Positions 15,223 to 48,610 of a DNA stretch of 64,000 bases are shown piece by piece (position 1 is the stretch's first letter; every line of letters begins with the position of its first letter). The position numbers and the translations under genes were made by a program. The DNA is from Anthopleura xanthogrammica (taxonomy: Eukaryota > Cnidaria > Anthozoa > Actiniaria > Actiniidae), in assembly GCA_964019055.1 (NCBI GenBank), contig OZ025211.1, forward strand, positions 865,135 through 929,134. The letters run 5' to 3'. The notes beneath the pieces were generated by a model, which was not told the origin of the DNA, made no database searches, and worked only from the letters and a program-made list of their open reading frames with translations.

Positions 15223-17181
15223 GCAGTTCTTGACCAATCAGCATGCACATACTATCCAAACTACAGTATAAAAAAAAGTTTTATTATTATATAAGTACCT
15301 CAGAATTTAAACACTTTGATTCTGTTATTAGACAATTCTGCAACAGCAATTCTTCCATCCTCTAGTATCGCCACACTCATGGGAAACCAGAAATCTTTCA
15401 AGTCTGAGCCAAAACCTCCAGTCTTCTTCTTGCTTGTTCCATCCAGGGCAAGGATCTCAATGGTATGATCATCTTGGACAGCATAGAAATGCTTATTTTT
15501 ATCATCAAACACTAACTGGATATGCATAATGCCTGAATCAAACTTGGAGAGAAATTCTCCATTGTAGTTGAAAACAACAGTTTCGGTTTTGTTTACACCA
15601 TTATCAAATGCATAGATCTTGCCTCCTTGAGCTGTGGCATAGATAACATTCATGAACTGTCCTTCAGCCCTACCCCATTGTCCAAACTTTGTCTTTAGGG
15701 TACCATCTGGCCCATAAATACAGATGCATGATTTACCCATGTCAGCACAAATCATGTTGCCGTCATCATCAACAAAGACACTTCGGATTACAACTTCGCT
15801 TTCTGGGTTGCTCACCATGTTGACAGTTTTGCCTTCATCATCTACATACACACTTGTGATAGCAGCTTCACTTCCTGTTGGGTCATCTTTACCAACATTA
15901 ATCACCATCAACTGATTGGCATCATAATCAAAGACTTGGATCCGACTCTTGTCATTATCATCTCTATCCACAACAACTAGATTGCCATCTTTATTTAGAT
16001 AGAAATCATCCATGCCATTTACTTTGCCTTCTCCTTTTTTCAAGATTACTTTGATAAATTTTCCCAGAGGATTAAAAAGCTGAATCCTCTGAACATCTTC
16101 CACGTTCACACCAATAGTATCTTGCTCCATTACCAGAAAATTCCCTTCTTTATCAATTCGGATTTTCTCAGGTTGATTGAAGAAACCATCTTCCATGCCG
16201 AGGTCTCCAAACACCCAGATCTCTGGTGGCTTGAACGGGGAAGGTGGGTCAGATGGCAGGCAACTTGGATCAAATTCCAGTTCGACTAGGTCATCGATAG
16301 GCAACTTCATGGTCTGCGCGTATTCCTTGGAACAGTCGAACATGACCTTGACTTCTGCTGCTAATTGAACATCTTTATTCTCGTAGATGGCCTCCACTAC
16401 TGGCTCTACATCGCACAGGTTGGAAAAAACCTTACAAATAACTGAACCAGCAAAGCCTGGCTTGTCAAAGTGAACAATAGTTCCCTCCAGCAAAGCCAGT
16501 TTAGCTGCAAGGACTCTGTGACGAGCAGAATTACTTTCATCTCGCAGTACAAACATCCCAGATTGTCTTTCAAGCCAATGTTGAACACGAAGATACAACT
16601 CATCGTCTAAACAAGGACTACTCAACTTCACCACTTGTTCACGAAGAGTAAATGCTGCATTAGCAACCGGTTTTCCCCATGCTTGTTTTTCTATGTCATG
16701 TAGAGCAGCCATTAGTTGTTCCTTTACCCATCTCCAACACTGGTCGCCATTTTCGACTCTTTCTGATATTACATCCCATTGTTCGCTAACCAGGAGCTTG
16801 AAGGCTAGTTTATACCAGGCATGAAAGTTTCTTACAGACATTTTTGTGGTTAAGAGCCCGTGAGGAGGAAAGATAATTTTCAGCTGTGTTGTGTACCACA
16901 GTGATTGGTCTGTGATGTTTAACCTGCAGGGGGGAGGGGAGGGGCATATTGAATTATTCATATATTGTCAGGTATTCGGTAAATTTTAATTTTTACCTTG
17001 GTTTTTCCTTTTACTAATCTATATGAAGAAAGATTTGGTTTTCAATGAAGAATACTAAGAAATTGCTCCTGTAGGCTGCTCCTGTATAGATTTTGTGGTC
17101 TTTCAATCTTCATCATGCCCCACCCTTGCTTGGTAAAACAGGAAGCCCAACATCTAAATATGGGTGCCTGGGAGAAAGAAA
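15223..17181. repeat. Tandem segmental duplication, unit 1 (NHL gene)
   Basis: The whole block matches 19073-20935 in the same orientation. The shared sequence starts in the 3' flank (CAGTTCTTGACCAATCAGCA), includes the gene, and ends upstream at AGGAAGCCCAACATCTA beside a GAAA-rich tract. Confidence 0.8.
15300..16841 (-). CDS. NHL-type beta-propeller protein, copy 1
   Basis: Single coding exon for 513 residues from MSVRNFHAWYKLAFKLL. I chose this start because the upstream in-frame ATG differs between the two copies, while a polypyrimidine tract and CTGCAG acceptor at about 16924 suggest a 5' UTR intron. Residues 1-205 form an alpha-helical N-terminal region I do not recognise. From about residue 209 to the end there are repeated beta-propeller blades with NHL-like wording (IRIDKEGNFLV, FYLNKDGNLVVVD, IQVFDYDAN, SVFVDDDGNMI, FGQWGRAEGQF, AILEDGRIAVAELSNNRIKVF). 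No signal peptide, so probably intracellular. An AATAAA signal lies about 15 bases past the stop (15285-15280 on the minus strand). NHL propellers bind protein or RNA; no partner is evident. It has 25 more residues than copy 2. Confidence 0.85.
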   Translation of the reverse strand: MSVRNFHAWYKLAFKLLVSEQWDVISERVENGDQCWRWVKEQLMAALHDIEKQAWGKPVANAAFTLREQVVKLSSPCLDDELYLRVQHWLERQSGMFVLRDESNSARHRVLAAKLALLEGTIVHFDKPGFAGSVICKVFSNLCDVEPVVEAIYENKDVQLAAEVKVMFDCSKEYAQTMKLPIDDLVELEFDPSCLPSDPPSPFKPPEIWVFGDLGMEDGFFNQPEKIRIDKEGNFLVMEQDTIGVNVEDVQRIQLFNPLGKFIKVILKKGEGKVNGMDDFYLNKDGNLVVVDRDDNDKSRIQVFDYDANQLMVINVGKDDPTGSEAAITSVYVDDEGKTVNMVSNPESEVVIRSVFVDDDGNMICADMGKSCICIYGPDGTLKTKFGQWGRAEGQFMNVIYATAQGGKIYAFDNGVNKTETVVFNYNGEFLSKFDSGIMHIQLVFDDKNKHFYAVQDDHTIEILALDGTSKKKTGGFGSDLKDFWFPMSVAILEDGRIAVAELSNNRIKVFKF

Positions 17182-19072: not shown

Positions 19073-20935
19073 ACAGTTCTTGACCAATCAGCATTCACAT
19101 ACTGTACTGTCCAAACTACATTATAAAAACAAGACTTATTATTATATATAAGTACCTCAGAATTTAAATACTTTGATTCTATTATTCATTCTGTCTGCAA
19201 CTGCAATTCTTCCATCCTCTAGTATCGCCACACTCATGGGAAACCAGAAATCTTTCAAGTCTGAGCCAAGACCTCCAGTCTTCTTCTTGCTTGTTCCATC
19301 CAGGGCAAGGATCTCAATGGTATGATCATCTTGGACGGCATAGAAATGCTTATCTTTATCATCAAACACTAACTGGATATGCATAATGCCTGAATCAAAC
19401 TTGGAGAGAAATTTTCCATCATAGTCTAAAACCACAGTTTCAATTTTGTCTACGCCACTATCAAATGCATAGATCTTGCCTCCTTGAGCTGTGACCTGAC
19501 CAACGTTACGGAACTGTCCTTCAGTCCTACCCCATTGTCCAAACTTTGTCTTTAGGGTACCATCTGGCCCATAAATACGGATGCATGATTTACCCATGTC
19601 AGCAAAAATCATGTTGCCGTCATCATCAACAAAGACACTTGTGATTTTAGCATCACTTTCTGGGTTGTCATTATCAACACTAATCACCATCAACTGATTG
19701 GCATCATAATCAAAGACTTGGATCCGAGTCTTGTCAGTATCATCTTTATCCACGACAACCAGATTGCCATCCTTATTTAGACAGAAATCACTCATGCCAT
19801 TTACTTTGCCTTCTCCTCTTTTCAAGATAACTTTGATAAATTTCCCCAGAGGATTAAAAAGCTGAATCCTCTGAATAGTTTCCACGTTCACGCCAATAGT
19901 ATCTTGCTCCATTACCAGAAAATTCCCTTCTTTATCAATTTGGATTTTCTCAGGTTGGCTGAGGAAACCATCTTCCATGCCGAGGTCTCCAAACACCCAG
20001 ATCTCTGGTGGCTTGAACGGGGAAGGTGGGTCAGATGGCAGGCAACTTGGATCAAATTCCAGTTCGACTAGGTCATCGATAGGCAACTTCATGCTCTGCG
20101 CGTATTCCTTGGAACAGTCGAACATGATCTTGACTTCTGCTGCTAATTGAGCATCTTTATTCTCGTAGATGGCCTCCACTACTGGGTCTATCTGGCACAG
20201 TTCAGTAAAAACACTACAAATGGCTGAACCAGCGTAGTCTGGCTTGTCAAAGTGAACAACAATTCCCTCCAGCAAAGCCAGCTTCGCTCCACGGATTCTA
20301 TGGCAAACAGAAGTACTTTCATCTCGCAGTGCAAACATTCCTCCTCCTTTTTCAAGCCAATATTGAGCATCAATATACTGCTCATTGTTTAAACTAGGAC
20401 TCGAAATCTTCAGCAGCTGTTGACGAAGGGTAGATGCTGCACTACCAAGCGATTTTTGCCATGCTTCTTTTTCCATGTCATGCAGAGCAGCCATTAGTTG
20501 TTCCTTTACCCATCTCCAACACTGGTCGCCATTTTCGACTTTTTCTGATATTACATCCCATTGTTCGCTAACCAGGAGCTTGAAGGCTAGTTTATACCAG
20601 GCATGAAAGTTTCTTACAGACATTTTAGTGGCTAAGAACTTAGGAAAGATAATTTTCAGCTGTGTTGTGTGTACCACAGTGATTGGACTGTGACGTTTAA
20701 CCTGCAGGGGGGAGGGGAGGGGCATATTGAATTATTCATATATTGTCAGGTATTCGGTAAATTTTAATTTTTACCTTGGTTTTTTCTTTTACTAATCTAT
20801 ATGAAGAAAGATTTTGTTTTCAATGAGGAATACTAAGAAATTGCAACTGTATATTTTTTCTGGTCTTTCATCATGCCCCACCCTTGGTAACACAGGAAGC
20901 CCAACATCTAGATATGTGCCTGGGAGAAAGAAAGG
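19073..20935. repeat. Tandem segmental duplication, unit 2 (NHL gene)
   Basis: Counterpart of 15223-17181, same strand and order, including the 3' flank with its AATAAA, the coding exon, the upstream C-rich tract and about 200 bases beyond. It ends directly at a long GAAA array. Confidence 0.8.
19157..20623 (-). CDS. NHL-type beta-propeller protein, copy 2
   Basis: Single coding exon, 488 residues from MSVRNFHAWYKLAFKLL. Same architecture as copy 1: an unrecognised helical N-terminal region followed by an NHL-like propeller (IQIDKEGNFLV, FCLNKDGNLVVVD, SVFVDDDGNMIFAD, FGQWGRTEGQF, AILEDGRIAVADRMNNRIKVF). Its first 50 residues match copy 1 almost exactly, and most of the propeller is nearly identical. 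Residues from about 52 to 150 differ at many positions. It lacks the 25-residue partial blade duplication of copy 1, so it is probably the ancestral form. The same acceptor-like CTGCAG precedes the start, again suggesting a 5' UTR intron. Role unknown; no signal peptide or membrane segment. Confidence 0.85.
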   Translation of the reverse strand: MSVRNFHAWYKLAFKLLVSEQWDVISEKVENGDQCWRWVKEQLMAALHDMEKEAWQKSLGSAASTLRQQLLKISSPSLNNEQYIDAQYWLEKGGGMFALRDESTSVCHRIRGAKLALLEGIVVHFDKPDYAGSAICSVFTELCQIDPVVEAIYENKDAQLAAEVKIMFDCSKEYAQSMKLPIDDLVELEFDPSCLPSDPPSPFKPPEIWVFGDLGMEDGFLSQPEKIQIDKEGNFLVMEQDTIGVNVETIQRIQLFNPLGKFIKVILKRGEGKVNGMSDFCLNKDGNLVVVDKDDTDKTRIQVFDYDANQLMVISVDNDNPESDAKITSVFVDDDGNMIFADMGKSCIRIYGPDGTLKTKFGQWGRTEGQFRNVGQVTAQGGKIYAFDSGVDKIETVVLDYDGKFLSKFDSGIMHIQLVFDDKDKHFYAVQDDHTIEILALDGTSKKKTGGLGSDLKDFWFPMSVAILEDGRIAVADRMNNRIKVFKF

Positions 20936-21155
<220 letters not shown>

Positions 21156-21789
21156 CAGGTGAAGAACAAAAAAAAAAAGATTCCTCTCCAACTTCCAAAG
21201 TCCAACCACCCCCCTCCCCTCCGTAAAAAAGCAGATGAGTACAACACACAAACTTCATCATGTTAGAGTTTTGATTTTTTAATGCCATTTTACTCCCCGT
21301 TACATTCACTTTTCTTTTAACATCTACAATATTTTGCATTTATTTATTAGTCCTATTAAACACCTGTGTTCCAGCCTGCGTATCGTAGGGAATGGAGGGA
21401 CAAAATAGGAAACCAGGCTTGAGGATGGTAAGAAAGGTTAAGAAAGGAGGGGAAAAATCTGTATAAGAAAAACTTGGTCTAAAGACTAAACTGAAGCAAT
21501 TGAAGGAAAAATAATAAATGCTGGCTCACGATGGAAAAATTATTTCAAAGAAAAATGGTGACGGAACCAGGGCTGAGGATTTAGACAAGCATGAAGATGG
21601 GACGGAGATGTGCGTGGCCAATGAATGGGATAGCAAGGAATATGAAACACGGGACTAAAAGGATTAATTGGGCCAGAGGAGACGGAGCAGGTTAGTTGAA
21701 GTGTTTATGGGGACTCCAGATTATCCAAATTAGTGTGAATTACTTCTACTTAGTTCCCTTAACGATTATAGTCCTAAATGCCGTGTATA

Positions 21790-23953
21790 TCAAGAGCCCT
21801 TCTTATCCTCCTTACAGGGCTTATACTTCTCACAAGCGTTTTCCATATAGTTAGCTCGTATGTAGTACCTGCCTATGTCAACACCTACTCCATTGATCCA
21901 GAAGTCTTCATTTAACATCAAATCGGTCATTGCATTCAGGCTTGTCTTAGACTGATCGAAGGCCTCTTGCATGATTTGAGAGAATTCCTTCTTAACTGGG
22001 TCAAAGCTATTCATGGAGTAATCGCCTCGATAAAAGATATCTACTATCAAGTCTTTGACGACTTGTTTCATCTGGTCAAATTTCAGCCCTGTCTTGGAGT
22101 ACTTCTCGACCATTCTCTTGGCCTTGTTCAGTTGTTTGGGGTATTCTAGCTCAAACAGTTTCTTCTGCTGCACTGTGGTTATTGTGAAGTTTTCAAGTTT
22201 GTTGTTCTGGTGAAAAATAAAATATCAAGATACGATTCAATAGCAGCAGCAGCAACATGAACTAGCAGTAGTAGCAGCAGTATAGTAGTAGTAGCAGCAG
22301 TAGCAACAGCAGCAGCAGCACTATAGCAGTAGTGGAAGTTAGGGACCGCGCAGCACCTTAAAAAGTGGTGGTGCGATATAAGAAACTAGTATGGGAAAAG
22401 GGAAAAAGGGATAGCCCTACAAGCCCAGCCCCTCCCCTTCCGTGGTTCGTGGAAGCTGTGGCAGTAGTAGCAGCAGCAGAAGTAGTACTAGCAGTAGCAC
22501 TAGGAACAGTAGTACTAGTAGTAGCATTAGGAACAGTAGTAGTAGCAGACGTTGAAATGGTCTGTGTGTGGGGGGGGCATCACTAGTCACTAAGGTTAGA
22601 CAAACCGGTTCATGTATACACTGAAGTGCTTAAAAAATACATGCATCACTCGATTCAAATTGGGGCTTAGCTTGCGCTTAAATAATGCATTGGGATCAAA
22701 AGGGGGAGGACATGTCCCCCTACTCCCATTAGAACCACCACTTAGGGAGGACTTGTTGCTATATTTGACATACCTTTATCCATAACTTCGCCCTGTCGCC
22801 TTCCAAATGAATTGCATTCATCAGCTTCACAGCAATAGAGTTCTGTATTCCCGCAACAGTAAGGTCACTCTTGATGTGCAATATCATTTTTTCTTTCACG
22901 TCATATCCTCGCCCAACAGTCACCCCTGAGGTGTTACCGAAAACGTGTAGTTTGCGGCTGAAATACGGACTTGAGGAATTGTCGTCTCCTTCAGCTTCAA
23001 AAGTGAATGCTCCTTGCTGTACTACTAGGAATGGATCCTCTGTAAAGGAGAATTAAGAATAATATATTAGCAACTGAAGTGACGGTGAGACTGGAAGCGA
23101 AGCATGGTTAGCATGCATGGCAGCGAGAGCGCTCGAGTTTTCTTCCTACCGCGAAATCTAGCAAAATAAACTTCAACTCCATGATTCAATCTGTAACGGA
23201 TTTTAAGGTAGTACAGATTCAAAAAGTCTTACCTGTAGGGGTTGGCACCTCAGGCCCATCAGTAGGGGGTTGTACCCCAGGTCCAGCAGTTCCTTCCTCT
23301 GGCTCGGGTGGTTCTTTACCTTTCGATGTCAGGCCTTTCAACTTCGACAGCCATTTTTGTAACAATGCTTTGCCGGGTTTAAATGTTCCTTTTACCCAGG
23401 CTTTGATTTTCGACCACAATTTTGGCTTTTTGAGGGGTAAGATTTTCTTGGCTTTCTTTAACAATTTTTTTATTTTTCTGGTTAATTTTTTTATCTTGAA
23501 TTTTTTTAGTATTCTTCGTGTCCGGATGCGAATAAGCCTTCTGGCATTAAAGCGGACACGGCGGAACTTTCGGACAGCACGACGGAGTCTTCGGGTACGG
23601 AAACGGACAGCACGACGGAGTCTTCGGGTACGGAAACGGATAGCACGACGGAGTCTACGGGTACGGAAACGGATAGCACGGCGAAGTCTTCGGGTACGGA
23701 AACGGATAGCACGGCGAAGTCTTCGTGTACGGAAACGGACAGCACGACGAAGTCTTCGGGTACGGAAACGGACAGCACGACGAAGTCTTCGGGTACGGAC
23801 GCGAACAGCACGGCGAAGTCTTCGGGTACGAAATCTAGGCCGCCTAACGACCCTTCTCCATCCACCACCGCGTCGTCGTCCCCATCCTTCGGACTCTTGG
23901 ATAACTAACAAGGTAACGATCACTACCAAAGCTAACAGCACGTACCAACGCAT
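21790..23953 (-). CDS. Secreted Arg-repeat / pesticin-like lysozyme fusion, copy A
   Basis: Exons 23953-23233, 23039-22774 and 22206-21790 splice in phase (1, then 0) to 467 residues. Order: signal peptide (about 1-23, WYVLLALVVIVTLLVI); arginine-rich region with eight 11-residue RTRRLRRAVRF-type repeats (42-129); lysine-rich segment (about 149-209); Pro/Glu/Gly linker (about 213-240); and a C-terminal domain (241 to about 455) resembling the pesticin/phage T4 lysozyme-like fold. That domain shows FEAEG (candidate catalytic Glu257), then VTVGRGYD (Thr281 and Asp287, the T-X5-D spacing of the pesticin active site), later LFELEYP, VDIFYRGDYS and GRYYIRANY. Predicted role: secreted peptidoglycan hydrolase with a cationic, membrane- or wall-binding arm. 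The introns argue against bacterial contamination. The tail carries two cysteines. Muramidase activity is inferred. Confidence 0.8.
22240..22545. repeat. AGC/AGT trinucleotide tracts in lysozyme A intron 2
   Basis: Two degenerate clusters of AGC and AGT triplets (about 22240-22335 and 22460-22545) with unrelated sequence between them. They correspond in position to the tract at 32905-33095 in copy B. Confidence 0.8.
23567..23830 (-). repeat. Coding 33-bp minisatellite, 8 units (11-aa Arg repeat)
   Basis: Eight in-frame units of 33 bases encode RTRRLRRAVRF-like peptides with V/I and F/V exchanges. Each unit begins RTRR, which fits the furin rule R-X-R/K-R. Copy B has five full units and different substitutions. 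Confidence 0.9.
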
Positions 23954-24024
23954 GTTGCCGAGTAGAAAGAGGTTCTTCTCTCACCAACAGCTGAGAAGAA
24001 TGGTTGTGAGGATCATATGGACAG

Positions 24025-24036
24025 CCTATTATAAAC
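24025..24036 (-). promoter_or_regulatory. Candidate TATA box of lysozyme copy A
   Basis: On the minus strand GTTTATAATAGG lies about 75 bases upstream of the ATG in otherwise conserved flank. In copy B the same site reads GTTCATAATAGA. Transcription start is inferred only. Confidence 0.4.
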
Positions 24037-25787
24037 AACTAAACTCCTCCACAATACAAAGTTTCTTGAAATTTTTCTTGTATTTTTTCGCTTAAGGCGA
24101 AAAAAATAAAATAAATGGTTTTGTCCTATTGACATTAAAATGTAAATATCATGATTGAGAAGGGTTTTTTGAACCACGCTCCAAGGTCAGGCCGTGAAAC
24201 TAGTATACTCTGATGATCAATTGGTTTTTATTTGCGCGATGATTTTTGGCAAACTCACCTTGAATAAGGTGATATTGAATAGCGCTTATAGTTCAAGAAA
24301 AGGAGCATTTAATGTTATGCGATAGTTTAGGAAAACGTGGTGTTAATTCTGGATTAAAGTAAAAGTGGTAGTTCTTAGTTGCCATGGTAATCAGAGCATG
24401 AATCCTTCCTTTCAGGGCAGGGACGGTTTATCTTACGAAAATATGTGAGAAAACTCAATGATTATCACCTCATGCATGAAATTACAAGTGAAAACCGCTC
24501 GTTATAAGTAAACGCAAGCTAAGAAAGGAAACTTTCCAATCCTTTCGATTCCCGGAACTATTCCGACACGCTTCCAGCACGCTTCCGACTCCGATTCTGT
24601 CGCAAGAATACTGAAGTGAACTTTGTCCAACCCTAAATTTCTTTTTAATTCCGTTTAGCAAGCCTTCCCGTCCATTCTGTTTCCATTAATGGCTGGGTAG
24701 ATAATCCTGCGTGAGGAAATACGCTCTCATTTCTGGATACTCAGTATTTTCTGGTCAATAAGATGATATATTTATTAAAAAATTATGATTTAAGGATACT
24801 GAAAATTCTGACAATATTTGCCTAGCAAAGATTTGGAACATGCATGACGAAGGAAATGATTAAGCAGATCTAAGCACGTAGATTTGTCAGTTTTCATAAT
24901 TGATAAAACAAGAATAATCCTGTAATTCTTTGGTCAGATGAGAGCTGAGCTCATAAAACTGCCCCAGGGACGGGAAGTTGGAGATCTATTGCTTTTTGAA
25001 TTTCAGATTTGAATTTTGAAAAGCTCAAAAAAATCAATTCAATTCACGGTTTTCATCAAATCTCTACGTGAAAGACAAATTTTCGCTCTAAAGGACAAAT
25101 GTGTTTCAATTCGTTCTAGAATGATAAAAGTCACTCTCATATTTTGTCATTTTCAAGTGCTCTTCCATTTCAATTTTTCAAACTAAACATTCTTCAAAAT
25201 AAAAGTTAAGCTTTGCTTAAACTTTATATACAACTGTTTTTCTCTCTCAGTTGTTAATGTTCCTTCCACCAAACCTATTTCATTGGTTTGGTTATTTCTT
25301 TCCCTCGCCCCTCTTTTTTCTTTGTCTTGAGTTTCCATTCTTTCTTTTTCCTCCCCTCTCTTCCAGGATGTTCGTTTGTTTCAATCATCGATCCATCTAT
25401 GTATTCCTTCTTATTTATTTACATAACTTTATCCATAACATTTATCTAAAATTAATTAAAGTGGTGCTTAAGTTGTCATGGAAGGGGATAGCACAACAGA
25501 GATGGGCTCCAAATTAAGTGCACCTGACCCTAACGAAATATTATGAAAAAAATTGGGGCCTAATAATAAAGTAACTATAGGAAGAGAAAAGGAAAAATTC
25601 CAAATAATGAGGACTTACAGACTTGTATAAATAATCTCTTGTAATTTAAATACAAATGAATGCATATAAAGTTTTGTATTGTGAAGAAAAAAAAGAAAAA
25701 CAAGAGAGTATAATGCATGAGTAATATATCTATGACAATAAGTATAGTAGTTATAAATTTTAGGGAGTTTAAAATAAGAATGTCATA

Positions 25788-26789: not shown

Positions 26790-28240
26790 GTAGTGGTAGT
26801 GGTAGTGGTAGTGGTAGTGGTAGTGGTAGTGGTAGTGGTAGTGGTAGTGGTAGTGGTAGTGGTAGTGGTAGTGGTAGTGGTAGTGGTAGTGGTAGTGGTA
26901 GTGGTAGTGGTAGTGGTAGTGGTAGTGGTAGTGGTAGTGGTAGTGGTAGTGGTAGTGGTAGTGGTAGTGGTAGTGGTAGTGGTAGTGGTAGTGGTAGTGG
27001 TAGTGGTAGTGGTAGTGGTAGTGGTAGTGGTAGTGGTAGTGGTAGTGGTAGTGGTAGTGGTAGTGGTAGTGGTAGTGGTAGTGGTAGTGGTAGTGGTAGT
27101 GGTAGTGGTAGTGGTAGTGGTAGTGGTAGTGGTAGTGGTAGTGGTAGTGGTAGTGGTAGTGGTAGTGGTAGTGGTAGTGGTAGTGGTAGTGGTAGTGGTA
27201 GTGGTAGTGGTAGTGGTAGTGGTAGTGGTAGTGGTAGTGGTAGTGGTAGTGGTAGTGGTAGTGGTAGTGGTAGTGGTAGTGGTAGTGGTAGTGGTAGTGG
27301 TAGTGGTAGTGGTAGTGGTAGTGGTAGTGGTAGTGGTAGTGGTAGTGGTAGTGGTAGTGGTAGTGGTAGTGGTAGTGGTAGTGGTAGTGGTAGTGGTAGT
27401 GGTAGTGGTAGTGGTAGTGGTAGTGGTAGTGGTAGTGGTAGTGGTAGTGGTAGTGGTAGTGGTAGTGGTAGTGGTAGTGGTAGTGGTAGTGGTAGTGGTA
27501 GTGGTAGTGGTAGTGGTAGTGGTAGTGGTAGTGGTAGTGGTAGTGGTAGTGGTAGTGGTAGTGGTAGTGGTAGTGGTAGTGGTAGTGGTAGTGGTAGTGG
27601 TAGTGGTAGTGGTAGTGGTAGTGGTAGTGGTAGTGGTAGTGGTAGTGGTAGTGGTAGTGGTAGTGGTAGTGGTAGTGGTAGTGGTAGTGGTAGTGGTAGT
27701 GGTAGTGGTAGTGGTAGTGGTAGTGGTAGTGGTAGTGGTAGTGGTAGTGGTAGTGGTAGTGGTAGTGGTAGTGGTAGTGGTAGTGGTAGTGGTAGTGGTA
27801 GTGGTAGTGGTAGTGGTAGTGGTAGTGGTAGTGGTAGTGGTAGTGGTAGTGGTAGTGGTAGTGGTAGTGGTAGTGGTAGTGGTAGTGGTAGTGGTAGTGG
27901 TAGTGGTAGTGGTAGTGGTAGTGGTAGTGGTAGTGGTAGTGGTAGTGGTAGTGGTAGTGGTAGTGGTAGTGGTAGTGGTAGTGGTAGTGGTAGTGGTAGT
28001 GGTAGTGGTAGTGGTAGTGGTAGTGGTAGTGGTAGTGGTAGTGGTAGTGGTAGTGGTAGTGGTAGTGGTAGTGGTAGTGGTAGTGGTAGTGGTAGTGGTA
28101 GTGGTAGTGGTAGTGGTAGTGGTAGTGGTAGTGGTAGTGGTAGTGGTAGTGGTAGTGGTAGTGGTAGTGGTAGTGGTAGTGGTAGTGGTAGTGGTAGTGG
28201 TAGTGGTAGTGGTAGTGGTAGTGGTAGTGGTAGTGGTAGT
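26790..28240. repeat. Perfect GTAGTG hexanucleotide satellite, about 1.45 kb
   Basis: An uninterrupted tandem array of the hexamer GTAGTG (about 242 units), with no visible substitution. It produces poly-valine and Tyr-His reading frames that are not proteins. GG pairs every six bases could form two-tier G-quadruplexes on the plus strand. Its true length may differ from the assembly. Confidence 0.98.
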
Positions 28241-28261: not shown

Positions 28262-29900
28262 CAGATCTTACATCATAGCCCTGACAGGTTATGATGCGTG
28301 CAGCTCTGCATATAAACGAGGTCTAGTATAGTCGAGACAATAGGAATGTCGTTAATGTATATTATAAACAATAGCGGTCCTAATATTGATCCTTGTGGAA
28401 CACCACAAGATATAGGTTTAGGCTCAGAAATTGAGTTTTCAACTACACAACATTGCATTCTCTCGCGTATATATGATTTAAAAAATTCTAGACTTATTCC
28501 ATTAATTCCATCGTATTGCAGTTTGGAAATTAAGATTTGATGTGATACGGTATCGAATGCTTTAGCTAAGTCCAAAGCAACTACTAGATTAGTCAAGCCT
28601 TTATCCATATTAGCATACCACTCATTAGTATAGCTTCTAGCAAAGCAGTGAGAGTGGAATGCAGAGGACGAAAGCCTGACTGATATTTAGTAAACAAATC
28701 ATGAACAGCAAAATAGTGATATAGTTGGTTAAACACTGCCCTCTCACATAATTTTGATAAAATAGGCAGAATAGAGATAGGCCTATAATTACTTGGATCG
28801 TCTCGATCATTAGCTTTGAAGAGAGGAATAACTTTTGCTGTCTTCCAACCTGATGGAAAAATCCCTAATGAAAGGGATTTATTTACAATATTAGCTAGGG
28901 AGGCAGCAATAACTGGTGCCGCTTCTTTAAGCAGGCGACAAGATATATTATCTAAACCCGTCGCCTTGTCTACCGACATCTTATTCAAGAACTCAACTAC
29001 GAAATCAATAAAAATTGACTGAAAAAAAACAAATTGAAATTTTACTGGTTGTAGGAAAGCGCTGAAATCCATAGAACCGTCCTCAAATTTAGAAGTCATA
29101 TCAGCACCGATGCTAGAAAAATAGCAATTCAGTTTTTCAGCAATTTCAGTAGGGTTTGTAAATGTACTATTTTCAAACTCTCTCCCTTATAGAATTACTT
29201 TTAGTCTTTGTTCGGCCACTGACATTATTTATGGTTCTCCATAAAGCTTTAGGATTATCGCGATTTTTTTCTATATGGGAGTGATAATAGGAAGCTTTAG
29301 CTTTTTTAATTTCGTTATTTACCAAATTTCTAAATTCCTTATATTCACTCCATACCTGTGAACTTTAGTTTTAGTAACTTGGTTTTTCAAATAATCCCTA
29401 TGAGTAATCATTTGTCTAATGTCGCAGGCAAGCCAAGGTAATTGGTTGTTTCGTACCCTACGAGTTTTAGTAGGCGCCTGCTCATCTGCTGTTTCAAGGA
29501 AACGTTTTTCCCTAATAACTAACATTTCGCTTGGATCCTTCAAATTATGTCTGACCAATCGACTGAACTTAAGATTGTTCTAAAATTGTGAGGATTAAAG
29601 TTTTTGAAACACCTATAGGTGACATATTTGTGCTTGTTATTGGATGGAACTGCAAATTTCCTTATAGCATACACAAGACTATGATCACTTATTCCCAAGT
29701 GACAAACACCTGAAGTGACTATTCGACTTGGTTCGTTCGTAAAGATGACATCTATAAGCGTACTTGTAGTTTGTGTTATCCTTGTAGGCTCATTTATGAG
29801 CTGATTGATTTGGTAGGTGTCACAAATCGACTGTATAAGTAGTAAATTAGAATCATGAAGATTAGATAATATATAGATTTAGGCACTGCCTAAAAGCGGA
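28262..29900 (-). mobile_element. Truncated non-LTR retrotransposon (CR1/L2-like LINE)
   Basis: Read on the minus strand, upstream to downstream. First the end of an endonuclease domain (about 29830-29530: NQLINEPTRITQTTSTLIDV, GISDHSLVYA). Then a linker (PWLACDIRQMITHRDYLKNQ), and reverse transcriptase motifs over about 29060-28290 (NKMSVDKATGLDNISCRLLK, ANDRDDPSNYRPISILPILS, ALDLAKAFDTVSH, CGVPQGSILGPLLFIIYIND). Stops and frame changes interrupt it, and it ends before the catalytic FADD box, next to the hexanucleotide satellite. It is a dead fragment. The clade is a judgement from motif style. Confidence 0.88.
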
Positions 29901-31757: not shown

Positions 31758-32408
31758 GAATGGATAGGAAGGAAAGAAAAAAAGAAAGAAAGAAAGAAAG
31801 AACAAAAAAGAAAAAAAAAGATTCCTCCCCAACCTCCAAAGCCCAACCACCCCCCTCCCCTCCGTAAAAAAGCAGATGAGTACAACACACAAACTTCATC
31901 ATGCTAGAGTTTTGATTTTTTAATGCCATTTTACTCCCCGTTACATTCACTTTTCTTTTAACATCTACGATATTTTGCAGTTATTTATTAGTCCCATTAA
32001 ATACCTGTGTTCCAGCCTGCGTAACGGTAGGGAATGAAGGGATAAAATAGGAAACCAGGCTTGAGGATGGTAAGAAAGGTTAAGAAAGGAGGGGGAAAAT
32101 CTGTATAGGAAAACCTTGGTCTAAAGACTAAACTGAAGCAATTGAAGGAAAAATAATAAATGATGGTTCACGATGGAAAAATTATTTCAAAGAAAGATGG
32201 TGACGGAACCAGGGCTGAGGATTTAGACAAGCATGAAGATGGGACGGAGATGAGCGTGGCCAATGAATGGGATAGCAAGGAATATGAAACACGGGACTAA
32301 AAGGATTGATTAATTGGGCCAGAGGATGGGGACTCCAGATTATCCAAATAAGTGTGAATTACTTCTACTTAGTTCCCTTAACGATTATAGTCTTAAATGC
32401 CGTGTAGA

Positions 32409-34332
<1,924 letters not shown>

Positions 34333-35878
34333 GTTGCTGAGTAGAAAGAGGTTCTTCTCTCACCAACAGCTGAGAAGAATGGTTGTGAGGATCATATGGA
34401 CAGTCTATTATGAACAACTAAACTCCTCCACAATACAAAGTTTCTTGAAATTTTTCCTGTAGTTTTCGCTTAAGGCGTAAGAAATAAGATAAATCTCGAA
34501 TATATAAAAATGTCCCATTGACACTGAAATGTAAATAACATTGAGATGTTTTTTTAACCTCGCTCCCAAGTCAGAATGCCTGCAAAACTCGAGCACTCCG
34601 ATTAATTTGCGTGATAATTTTTGGCAACCCCGCCTTCATTAATATCGAATAGCGTTTAGAGTTAGAAAAAGGAGCATTTCATTTTGTTTAATAATTGAAG
34701 AAAAAGTGATATTAATTCTGGATTAACGTAAAAGTGGTAATTCCCAGTTGCCATGGTAATCAGAGATGCTGAGCATGAATCATTCCTACAGCAGGCCAGA
34801 CACGGTTTATCTTAACAAATATACGTGACAAAGAATATGCAGATTTGTTAGTCCTATTATTAATAAAACGTGAAAAATCCTGTAATTCTCACTGCCAGTT
34901 GAAAGCGGGTTTCTGCCCCCCGGGAAGTTAGAGATCATTGCTTTTTTGAATAAAACGATCTTTTGAATTTAAACAAATTCGAGTTTCGAAAAACTCAAAA
35001 AAATTTATTCCCCCCCCCCCCCCCCCATCAAATCACTACATGACATACGAATACTCAAATATAATCGATCTATAATCGATCTACCAAAATGATGAAAACC
35101 TGTTTATCTTATTTTTTTTTTAATTTTCAACTGCTCTTGCATTTTATTTTCCAAAACACAAGTTAAGCTTTGCTTATATACAACTCTTTGTTCTTCTCTC
35201 TTGTTCATTGTTCCATTGATAAACCAACCCTTTTCATTTGCTTGTTTATTTTTTTTATTTCTTTCGCTCCTCTTTTTTCTTTTCTTCCGAGTTTCCATCC
35301 TTTCTTCTAAATTTTTCTCTCTCTTGTTTGTTTGTTCCAATCATCAGTTCAACAGTTCTATATTTCCACAATTGATTTACAAACATTTATATATTATATA
35401 AATATATAATTAATTGTCTACTAATTAAATGTGTAGAGGATGCAAGAGAATAACCTCAAAAAAAAAAAAAAAAAAAAAAAAACACTACATAAGATGGAGG
35501 GTTGAGTAAGATTTTACTTAATTACTAATTATGTATAAAAGGTGTATAAACAATCAATTTCAGTTAAAGAAATGGGTTAATGATTTGTACCAAGAGGCTA
35601 TAGTGCTGTTATGGTCTCTTGGTTATGAAAACATACAAAAGTTATTGTTGAAAAAAGAATTCATTGAACTAAATTATTGATACATCATTTGTCTCTGTTA
35701 ACCTATTTTTTGTATTTTTTTAAAACCTTAGTTGAACAGCTATTTCTTATCTCAATAGGTATAGACCTTTTTCAAAAACGAGTGAAAAACCAATACCAGC
35801 ACTAGGAAGAGCGCCTTTACTTCAGTAACCCTACGAAGATTCATTATGTCAGATGTAATATCGGCTGAGAAAATTTTG

Positions 35879-46700: not shown

Positions 46701-48610
46701 ACACTTATGCCAATAAGGCATAACATGATCTGAGTAGCAAGGGCGGTGTTATAAGCATGTTTCCTCTCGCTTGTATTTTGATTCCTGGACTTGGAATCAA
46801 ATGTGAGTATAGTTTGTTAGGTCCCTTCTTTGAATCAAAGGTTCTTTTCTAGATTTTTGGGTTTTCCTCCATCCACAAAACCCAACAAAAAATAAAAATA
46901 TCCAATTTCAACATCCAATATTCAATTTTGTTATCATCAGGTTAGAGGTGATCACATAGTAGCATGTACAGCATCAGAGGTTGCCGATAGAATAGCTATC
47001 ATTCAAGGATTAGAGGAGGAACAGAAGTCCTCCGTAGCTGAAAGATGTGCAAGGATATATGCAGAGTGCAACCCCAAGCCAGGTAACTTGCTTTCTTAAT
47101 ATTTTTTCAAACTTCCTGTTACAAATTTTTGGCAACTGTTACATGTGCATGAGAACTGGAGGAATTAGACTAGGACAGCTTATATGCACCGGTTTGTTGG
47201 TTCAAGTCCACCAAATGAATAATACACAATCTATAAATTCTATATTATTCTGGAAGGGGCCTATTATTCATGAAGCATGGATGTACCAGTGGTAATGTGC
47301 ACCTCATAAGAATGGTTTCCATTCAGTGAAAATTTAAAACAAATGTCAATTTTTATTCATTTATTTACTTTAAGCTTAAGAGCTTATTCATTCATTTTTC
47401 TATCTATATTAAAATTTTATTTATATATTTTACTATTACTGGCCATTTCTAAGCACTTTCACGCCAAACATGAAAAAAACCCACAAGAAAAAGCTTCATT
47501 CAGTAAAGCCAGTTGGGTAAATAAGATTATTGCTTCTAATTGTCAATCTTTTTTCTTGCTAACAGATTACAATGGAATGAAACAGAATAGAAGATTATCT
47601 TTAGTGAGAAATATGAATCTCAAGTCAACAGTAGAAGAATTAGTGAAACAGAACCCCTGTTGGTATGCAGCGCAGGAATACATTAACTGGTAAGAATTAA
47701 GTACATTATTACTGACTTTGATCTTTGACTGAATTAATTACTGACTTAGATCAGCCAAGAGGTTGTTTCAGGGTTCGATCTGTAAGATAGCCCTGCTTTG
47801 ACTTAGCTTAGCCAAGAGGTTGTTTCAGGGTTTGCTTGGTGAGTTAGCCATGCCCTGACTTAGATCAGCCCAGAGGTTGTTTCAGGGTTTGCTCGGTGAG
47901 TTAGCCATGCCCTGACTTAGATCAACCCAGAGGTTGTTTCAGGGTTCGATCTGTAAGTTAGCCATGCCCTGACTTAGATCAGCCCAGAGGTTGTTTCAGG
48001 GTTCGATCTGTAAGTTAGCCATGCCCTGACTTAGATCAGCCCAGAGGTTGTTTCAGGGTTCGATCTGTAAGTTAGCCATGCCCTGACTTAGATCAGCCCA
48101 GAGGTTGTTTCAGGGTTTGCTCAGTGAGTTAGCCCTGCTTTGACTTAGATCAGCCCAGAGGTTGTATCAGGGTTTGCTCGGTGAGTTAGCCCTGCTTTGA
48201 CTTAGATCAGCCCAGAGGTTGTTTCAGGGTTTGCTCGGTGAGTTAGCCCTGCTTTGACTTAGATCAGCCCAGAGGTTGTTTCAGGGTTTGCTCGGTGAGT
48301 TAGCCCTGCTTTGACTTAGATCAGCCCAGAGGTTGTTTCAGGGTTTGCTCGGTGAGTTAGCCCTGCTTTGACTTAGATCAGCCCAGAGGTTGTTTCAGGA
48401 AATTAATGTTCTTAGTGTGAACAGGGTCCTTTTAGATTTGTACAGATTATTTATTAATAAAGTCCGTGTGTTTTAACTTCCAGTGGTACCACAACATCAT
48501 TATTTGGATACAAGATTAACACCTTGGATGCCGTCGCAGAGCTGATCAACCTGAAGTCTGTACTCAAAGCTAACAAACACAAAAACAAAATCTTTCATAC
48601 CCAAAAATAA
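40744..48610 (+). CDS. F-box domain protein, 449 aa
   Basis: Seven coding exons with consistent GT-AG sites and phases: 40744-41271, 42983-43428, 44387-44634, 46149-46411, 46941-47082, 47566-47689 and 48484-48610. A basic N-terminus (GKKRR) precedes an F-box at residues about 48-90 (LPPEMIRLLVSFLDAPALSN, then CRLLW and MWHELCKRQ). Behind it is a cysteine cluster, CVVCYRGC then CDTCH and KC, that could bind zinc. A highly charged helical region follows (ALEERLLERQKQRTKREAEK), then a mixed C-terminal half with no family I know. F-box proteins recruit substrates to SCF ubiquitin ligases, so that is the predicted role; the substrate domain is unassigned. The ATG follows a likely 5' UTR exon. Confidence 0.8.
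43987..44243. mobile_element. MITE-like foldback in F-box intron 2
   Basis: The outer ends begin CAGTTACAGTG and its inverse. Arms of about 80 bases share CGAACCATGAACACTTCAAG and CATAACTATCCAATCAGCA. The central stretch is about 95 bases. No ORF. Confidence 0.7.
46505..46690. mobile_element. Degenerate foldback in F-box intron 4
   Basis: Inverted ends, TTTTCATAATCATGCAATCA and its diverged complement near 46665, surround sequence related to 57855-58000 in a CEP41 intron (both share GGGTTTTTG and TACTAGCTCG/TACTAGCTCA on opposite sides). Confidence 0.45.
47742..48403. repeat. 57-bp minisatellite in F-box intron 6
   Basis: About 11-12 tandem units of 57 bases (GACTTAGATCAGCCCAGAGG then TTGTTTCAGGG). 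Two interior variants occur, GTTCGATCTGTAAGTTAGCC mainly in the left half and GTTTGCTCGGTGAGTTAGCC mainly in the right half. The array fills most of the intron. Confidence 0.95.

Follow-up and report, generated by a model that had tools for sequence, protein, structure and literature searches.

Does a single animal gene join an arm of arginine-rich repeats to a lysozyme of bacterial type, and if so, where did the enzyme come from and what might the arm add to it? The question is raised by a 64,000-nucleotide stretch of the Anthopleura xanthogrammica genome (assembly GCA_964019055.1, contig OZ025211.1; hereafter the window). For this stretch, a sequence-only reading had proposed one spliced gene at 21790..23953 encoding, in order, a signal peptide, a strongly cationic repeat arm, a lysine-rich segment and a C-terminal pesticin/T4-lysozyme-like domain. 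The rebuilt splice model reproduces that span exactly and that order without change. The predicted gene, here called gene A, is well supported as the fusion of a pesticin-like muramidase domain with a polycationic repeat arm.

Gene A lies on the minus strand, as do all of its features given below, and encodes 467 amino acids in three exons (23953-23233, 23039-22774 and 22206-21790, with the stop at 21790). Both introns of the translated splice model are bounded by GT-AG sites, with phases 1 and 0, respectively, and a paralog has the same layout. A putative signal peptide (residues 1-23; 23885..23953) contains the hydrophobic stretch VLLALVVIVTLLVI and ends at a presumed cleavage site, and the protein is probably secreted. 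The arginine-repeat arm (residues 40-147; 23513..23836) is composed of an 11-residue unit, RFRTRRLRRAV/I, and is encoded by a 33-bp tandem array of 7.9 copies with 94% matches, as delineated by Tandem Repeats Finder. With arginine at 58 of its 108 residues and a net charge of +59, the arm is as strongly cationic as had been noted. The lysine-rich segment (residues 148-213, net charge +26; 23315..23512), recognized from its composition and from selection on its reading frame, brings the cationic part to 174 residues, and a Pro/Glu/Gly-rich linker (residues 214-240; 23233..23314) extends to the end of exon 1. Exon 2 (22774..23039) matches the N-terminal half of the pesticin-like domain, with E257, T281 and D287; exon 3 (21790..22206), delimited by its profile match and by identity to the relative P0001 described below, encodes the C-terminal helical half, with D385, R442 and R446. 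The net charge of the domain (residues 241-467) is +2, and that of the mature protein, assuming cleavage after residue 23, is +88. The EAEG motif and the T-X5-D pair of the earlier proposal are present as E255-A-E257-G, in which the codon of the candidate catalytic acid Glu257 occupies 22990..22992, and as T281-VGRGY-D287 (22900..22920).

A tandem paralog, gene B (32409..34332, minus strand; exons 34332-33786, 33627-33362 and 32825-32409), encodes 409 amino acids with the same exon layout and intron phases and an arm that is shorter and in part different. The duplication is traceable in the DNA, with roughly 21126-24452 corresponding to 31768-34832, and a tblastn search of the window revealed no further copies within it. 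The first 24 codons of A and B are identical (0 of 72 nucleotides differ). In the lysine-rich segment, amino-acid-changing differences are less frequent per site than silent differences (19.0 per 155.2 sites versus 14.0 per 39.8 sites, p 0.0016); when its two ungapped blocks were analyzed separately, the frame that is read showed the effect in each (p 0.025 and 0.033), whereas neither of the other frames did (p 0.58 to 1). Because gene B has equal exons and phases, and because the lysine-rich segment is constrained in the read frame only, the comparison of the two copies confirms that the predicted fusion layout is more than chance. Changing differences are also rarer in the arginine arm (p 0.0008), for which the alignment of the repeats is unsure.

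The two domains are identical at 205 of 227 residues and differ at 29 of 681 nucleotides, of which 25 are changing and 4 silent. At silent sites, exon 1 is far more diverged than exons 2 and 3: 4.0 silent differences per 136.7 sites in the domain compare with the 14.0 per 39.8 in the lysine-rich segment, so that either the domain exons have been homogenized or the copies are patchwork. This pattern suggests that the near-identity of the domains stems from gene conversion acting on exons 2-3 or from a duplication of mosaic type.

We next consider the identity of the domain, which the comparisons below support as a pesticin-type lysozyme of a GRGYD subfamily otherwise seen here in bacteria. In Pfam, the isolated domain matches PF16754 (Pesticin) with 26.5 bits, above the cut-off of 25.8, and the whole of protein A scores just under it (24.2). 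PF00959, the T4-type phage lysozyme family, was absent from the matches listed at E<=1 for either the isolated domain or the complete protein, a list that is incomplete since HMMER filters discard most matches above E of about 0.1. The pesticin part of the original domain assignment is supported, and the T4-type part found no match in this list. The c-, g- and i-type animal lysozyme families of Pfam gave no match either, the list for the domain at E<=1 consisting of Pesticin and two sub-threshold unrelated families. Scans of NCBIfam and PHROGs returned nothing of weight for the domain, and a PDB sequence search with the domain alone gave 0 matches. Among 5.8 billion proteins from genomes and metagenomes, a single relative was found, P0001, encoded on an ENA contig of 26 kb; a scan of genome contigs for exact B peptides picked up 30 stretches, none of which was confirmed.

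A search of bacterial genomes with a second motif pattern, G[VL]T.G[RS]GYDM, yielded at least 115 loci; together with six viral loci, an open reading frame (ORF) was recovered at 119 of 121. After five odd rows and short-ended rows were dropped, 101 bacterial rows remained for a profile; counts over bacterial rows and loci, here and below, are among the matches listed. This profile scores A at 176.0 bits and B at 174.3 bits, or 124.8 and 122.2 with the motif masked, compared with 29.0 bits for the best of 2000 motif-keeping shuffles. BLASTP of A matched all 101 rows at E<=1e-3 (best match 33% identity over 216 residues, E 3e-39), and the likeness to 20 chosen rows extends over the whole domain of about 200 residues, at 27-38% identity and with equal candidate catalytic residues. 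The structural comparison proposed with the original assignment points in the same direction: the fold of the modest domain model matches the pesticin lysozyme fold, with pesticin (PDB 4aqn, 4epf) as the best structural match at 12-17% identity in the structural alignments.

Alignments place T281 and D287 at the positions of T201 and D207 of pesticin, and E257 is aligned too, so that the proposed fit of the T-X5-D spacing to the pesticin active site holds. T281 and D287 lay inside the search patterns, and their constancy in the retrieved sets is by construction. The other candidate residues lay outside the patterns: E257 corresponds to Glu in 100 of the 101 bacterial rows and to a gap in one, D385 to Asp in all 101, R446 to Arg in 99 and R442 to Arg in 98. 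Position 255 is variable in bacteria (D 74, E 9, N 8, R 4), and the Lys at this position in B is therefore no loss. Thus, the comparisons support E257, T281 and D287 as a candidate catalytic set that is in place in both A and B.

The join between exons 2 and 3 is crossed without a gap by the bacterial profile, which also matches each exon singly (exon 2, with the motif masked, 53.3 bits; exon 3, 58.4 bits). P0001 shares 72% identity with exon 3 over 95% of its length, and its similarity starts no more than one residue from the junction. The predicted join between exons 1 and 2 is based on the GT-AG sites, the phase and the paralog only. Exon 1 reads into intron 1 before a stop, for a few codons in A (23219-23232) and for about 16 codons in B (33736-33785); in both copies, retention of intron 1 would yield an arm-only cationic protein.

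A phage origin of the domain was considered first and set aside, the phage evidence being weak and the bacterial subfamily then giving 176 bits. A first motif pattern found at least 120 loci in viral contigs, 117 of them with an ORF, and phage-type profiles built on such sequences scored A at 22.3 to 51.4 bits, from the matches listed. The best of them fell to 29.1 bits with the motif masked, versus 28.9 for the best of 2000 motif-keeping shuffles, and the phage-type profiles did not settle the catalytic Glu. A tblastn search of 50,697 phage records with the domain gave no convincing match (2 chance-level rows), and none of five stretches matched by exact peptides in viral contigs was confirmed. 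A slightly wider form of the bacterial motif retrieved six stretches from viral contigs, among which L238-L240 represent one unrelated protein and L237 is a clear member.

A quick tree of 3 animal, 86 bacterial and 10 phage rows unites the animal sequences in a single clade (100) and places it on the bacterial side of the root (97), adjoining L174 (Myxococcales) and L138 (88, not starred). A more careful tree, which combines A, B and the 10 phage rows with a spread of 46 of the 86 bacterial rows, groups A and B with L174 and L138 at 97/80. A topology with all bacteria as one clade was not rejected (p 0.275), and the tree does not fix the donor. The bacterial derivation held possible in the sequence-only reading is supported: given how widespread the family is among bacteria, and given the introns of the gene, transfer from bacteria to an animal is the simplest reading, and we infer that this was probably its direction.

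What the bacterial relatives do may indicate what was acquired. Ten bacterial ORFs were scanned: PF16754 was found in nine (20.8 to 31.0 bits), five of which exceed the cut-off, and one had no match; LysM, SH3, D-Ala-D-Ala carboxypeptidase or EF-hand parts are also present in some. Certain members on plasmids bear the annotation pesticin C-terminus-like muramidase, and on a 6.2-kb Enterobacter plasmid the muramidase gene is followed by a gene for an LprI-family lysozyme inhibitor. PF07007 (LprI) is matched by seven of eight chosen neighbours. We counted neighbours at 115 loci with a domain ORF (L121-L237), 88 of which have a next ORF. A profile built from the seven LprI sequences matched 56 of the 88 next ORFs, or 49 of 81 without the seeds, against a background of 8 matches among the 471 remaining mechanically called ORFs of these loci that are 100-200 residues long. 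These associations fit the view that the bacterial members resemble peptidoglycan-cutting toxins paired with lysozyme-inhibitor immunity genes. As a set, L121-L235 and L242 carry the EG and SGVT.GRGYDM motifs, match PF16754 only near threshold and look like a large muramidase/immunity collection. The bacterial members differ from A and B in being single ORFs without introns and in lacking comparable charge: the maximum number of arginines per 60 residues is 16 (n=101), versus 34 in A and 37 in B, and the top net charge is +15 (n=101), versus +34 and +37.

We consider it fairly likely that the product of gene A is a secreted antibacterial muramidase with a bacteria-derived domain, targeted by its polycationic arm. 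In this scenario, an animal ancestor would have acquired a pesticin-type domain from bacteria and gained introns, and the domain would have been fused behind a signal peptide and the polycationic arm encoded by the repeats. Once secreted, the Arg/Lys arm might bind anionic bacterial surfaces (lipopolysaccharide, teichoic acid) and locally disorder the membrane; the flexible linker could then let the arm-bound lysozyme reach murein, which E257, T281 and D287 would hydrolyse. Near the helical angle, the arm of A has a hydrophobic moment higher than that of any of 2000 shuffles, but the moment peaks at 130 degrees; for the arm of B the peak lies at 163 degrees, beta-like and above all 500 shuffles. 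The moments differ and therefore support no single conformation, leaving charge as the common property. No arm homologues were found, a weak negative since 7994 low-complexity candidates were scored.

Several observations weigh against a targeted, active enzyme. The structure model is modest, with a mean predicted local distance difference test score of 62.8 (with an intron insert) and values below 50 in the stretch that holds E257, and the Foldseek E-values are 1 or higher. The phage-trained profiles place E257 poorly or nowhere, the first-helix profile being unfitted at 255, 257 and 259, and in two alignments MAFFT put D259, not E257, in the catalytic Glu column. In the report on VgrG3cp, a pesticin-like effector that is a muramidase needing the Asp equivalent to D207, Thr and Asp are the only ones of the three pesticin residues described as conserved (PMC9927483). 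P274F, M288V and W372F alter otherwise conserved sites in both copies, and the A and B domains bear no sign of purifying selection (per-site ratio of changing to silent differences 1.57, p 0.48, with few changes to count). No independent homologue supports the join of exons 1 and 2. Finally, RXRR motifs, 17 in the arm of A and 12 in B, with RTRR and RLRR recurring as part of the 11-residue unit itself, may in A be furin-type cut sites in the secretory pathway, parting arm from enzyme.

The chief rival builds on these motifs: proprotein convertases would cut the arm at RXRR and free cationic peptides and a separate lysozyme, the arm then serving to store peptides rather than to target the enzyme. 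Such a peptide-plus-enzyme, two-step killing would remain antibacterial. Full cutting of a unit would, however, leave pieces of 3 and 8 residues, thought short for antimicrobial peptides, and the lysine-rich segment has no RXRR motif; we regard this polyprotein as unlikely, if less so than the explanations that follow. Less probable again is a digestive or mucus enzyme, in which the arm would anchor the lysozyme on anionic polymers of the animal itself (glycosaminoglycans, mucus, nucleic acid, capsule matrix) for the digestion of bacteria on the spot. A very high charge density, such as that of the arm, binds any polyanion. There is also a precedent in the reported involvement of a placozoan lysozyme in digestion (PMC12855814); yet the sequence indicates no host ligand, and in a gut the arm would presumably be degraded by enzymes of trypsin type.

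A lysozyme domain that has lost catalysis and is kept for peptidoglycan binding or signalling would accord with the excess of changing over silent differences, whose ratio is not significantly above 1, and with P274F and W372F at conserved sites, but the retention of E257, T281, D287, D385, R442 and R446 in both copies speaks against it, and we regard it as quite improbable. Least likely of all, and strongly disfavoured by the GT donor and AG acceptor of matching phase in both copies and by selection on the exon 1 frame as far as the end of the lysine-rich segment, is that exon 1 is a separate cationic secreted peptide gene, read past the donor to the near stop, with exons 2-3 in another transcript, for which the short read-through in A and B makes an arm-only product possible.

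Returning to the targeted antibacterial muramidase, its closest parallels include the following. Pesticin (C-terminal domain, PDB 4aqn, 4epf) and VgrG3cp share the pesticin-type Pfam family and the T/D residues, with E too in pesticin, and differ in their N-terminal delivery parts. Artilysins are described as engineered endolysins carrying membrane-active or polycationic peptides (PMC12170589); they would work alike in joining a cationic peptide to a peptidoglycan hydrolase, a likeness that the gene layout fits provided that the spliced product is made and stays uncut, and differ in being engineered with short peptides (for example, nine residues), whereas the cationic part of gene A is natural, repeat-encoded and 174 residues long. 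LysC of Clostridium intestinale is a natural peptidoglycan hydrolase whose antibacterial activity resides in a cationic N-terminal stretch, deletion of residues 2-23 abolishing it (PMC7404271); unlike the product of gene A, it is a bacterial zinc amidase with a short extension. The takeover of a bacterial wall hydrolase by an animal is itself of a known kind, to which gene A adds the polycationic repeat arm. The tick enzyme Dae2, for example, is of bacterial origin. Wall-cutting enzymes of bacterial or phage type within animal genomes include the bivalve phage-type lysozymes (PMC5303276), Dae2 (PMC11347951) and GH25 (PMC4241558), which belong to other enzyme families and for which the excerpted texts mention no polycationic repeat arm.

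Among the matches listed, the open-access PMC literature contained no description of an animal protein of this kind; pesticin and lysozyme combined with cnidaria returned nothing, and combined with coral, secretion effectors only. Whether gene A and gene B amount to a natural artilysin of animals, that is, an interbacterial-warfare muramidase captured and set behind a polyarginine arm that is encoded by repeats and evolves fast, the arm diversifying between the tandem copies and the enzyme half staying near-identical, possibly by gene conversion, is a proposal on which we consider the balance even. If true, it would represent a lysozyme class that we did not find described in animals. An active enzyme would add the pesticin-type class to animal lysozymes, would be a further enzyme of bacterial antagonism that an animal has adopted and equipped with a new delivery part, and would offer a natural answer to the problem addressed by Artilysins, the crossing of the Gram-negative envelope by a lysozyme. 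Since their arms are unlike, the two copies allow a direct test of arm length and composition.

The surroundings of the two genes contain ORFs with NHL repeats, along with matches to reverse transcriptase and PAN that stay below threshold. Between the copies, at 28273-29186 (minus strand), lie ORFs resembling a mobile-element reverse transcriptase; the one scanned matched RVT_1 with 26.8 bits, just under the cut-off. A second local duplication (15300-16967 and 19157-20731, minus strand) comprises two long NHL-repeat protein ORFs with about 88-90% identical DNA. Tandem repeats include the hexanucleotide GTAGTG in 242 perfect copies (26790-28240, 1451 bp), an array that is open in several frames, and a 57-bp repeat of 11.5 copies with 94% matches at 47742-48399.
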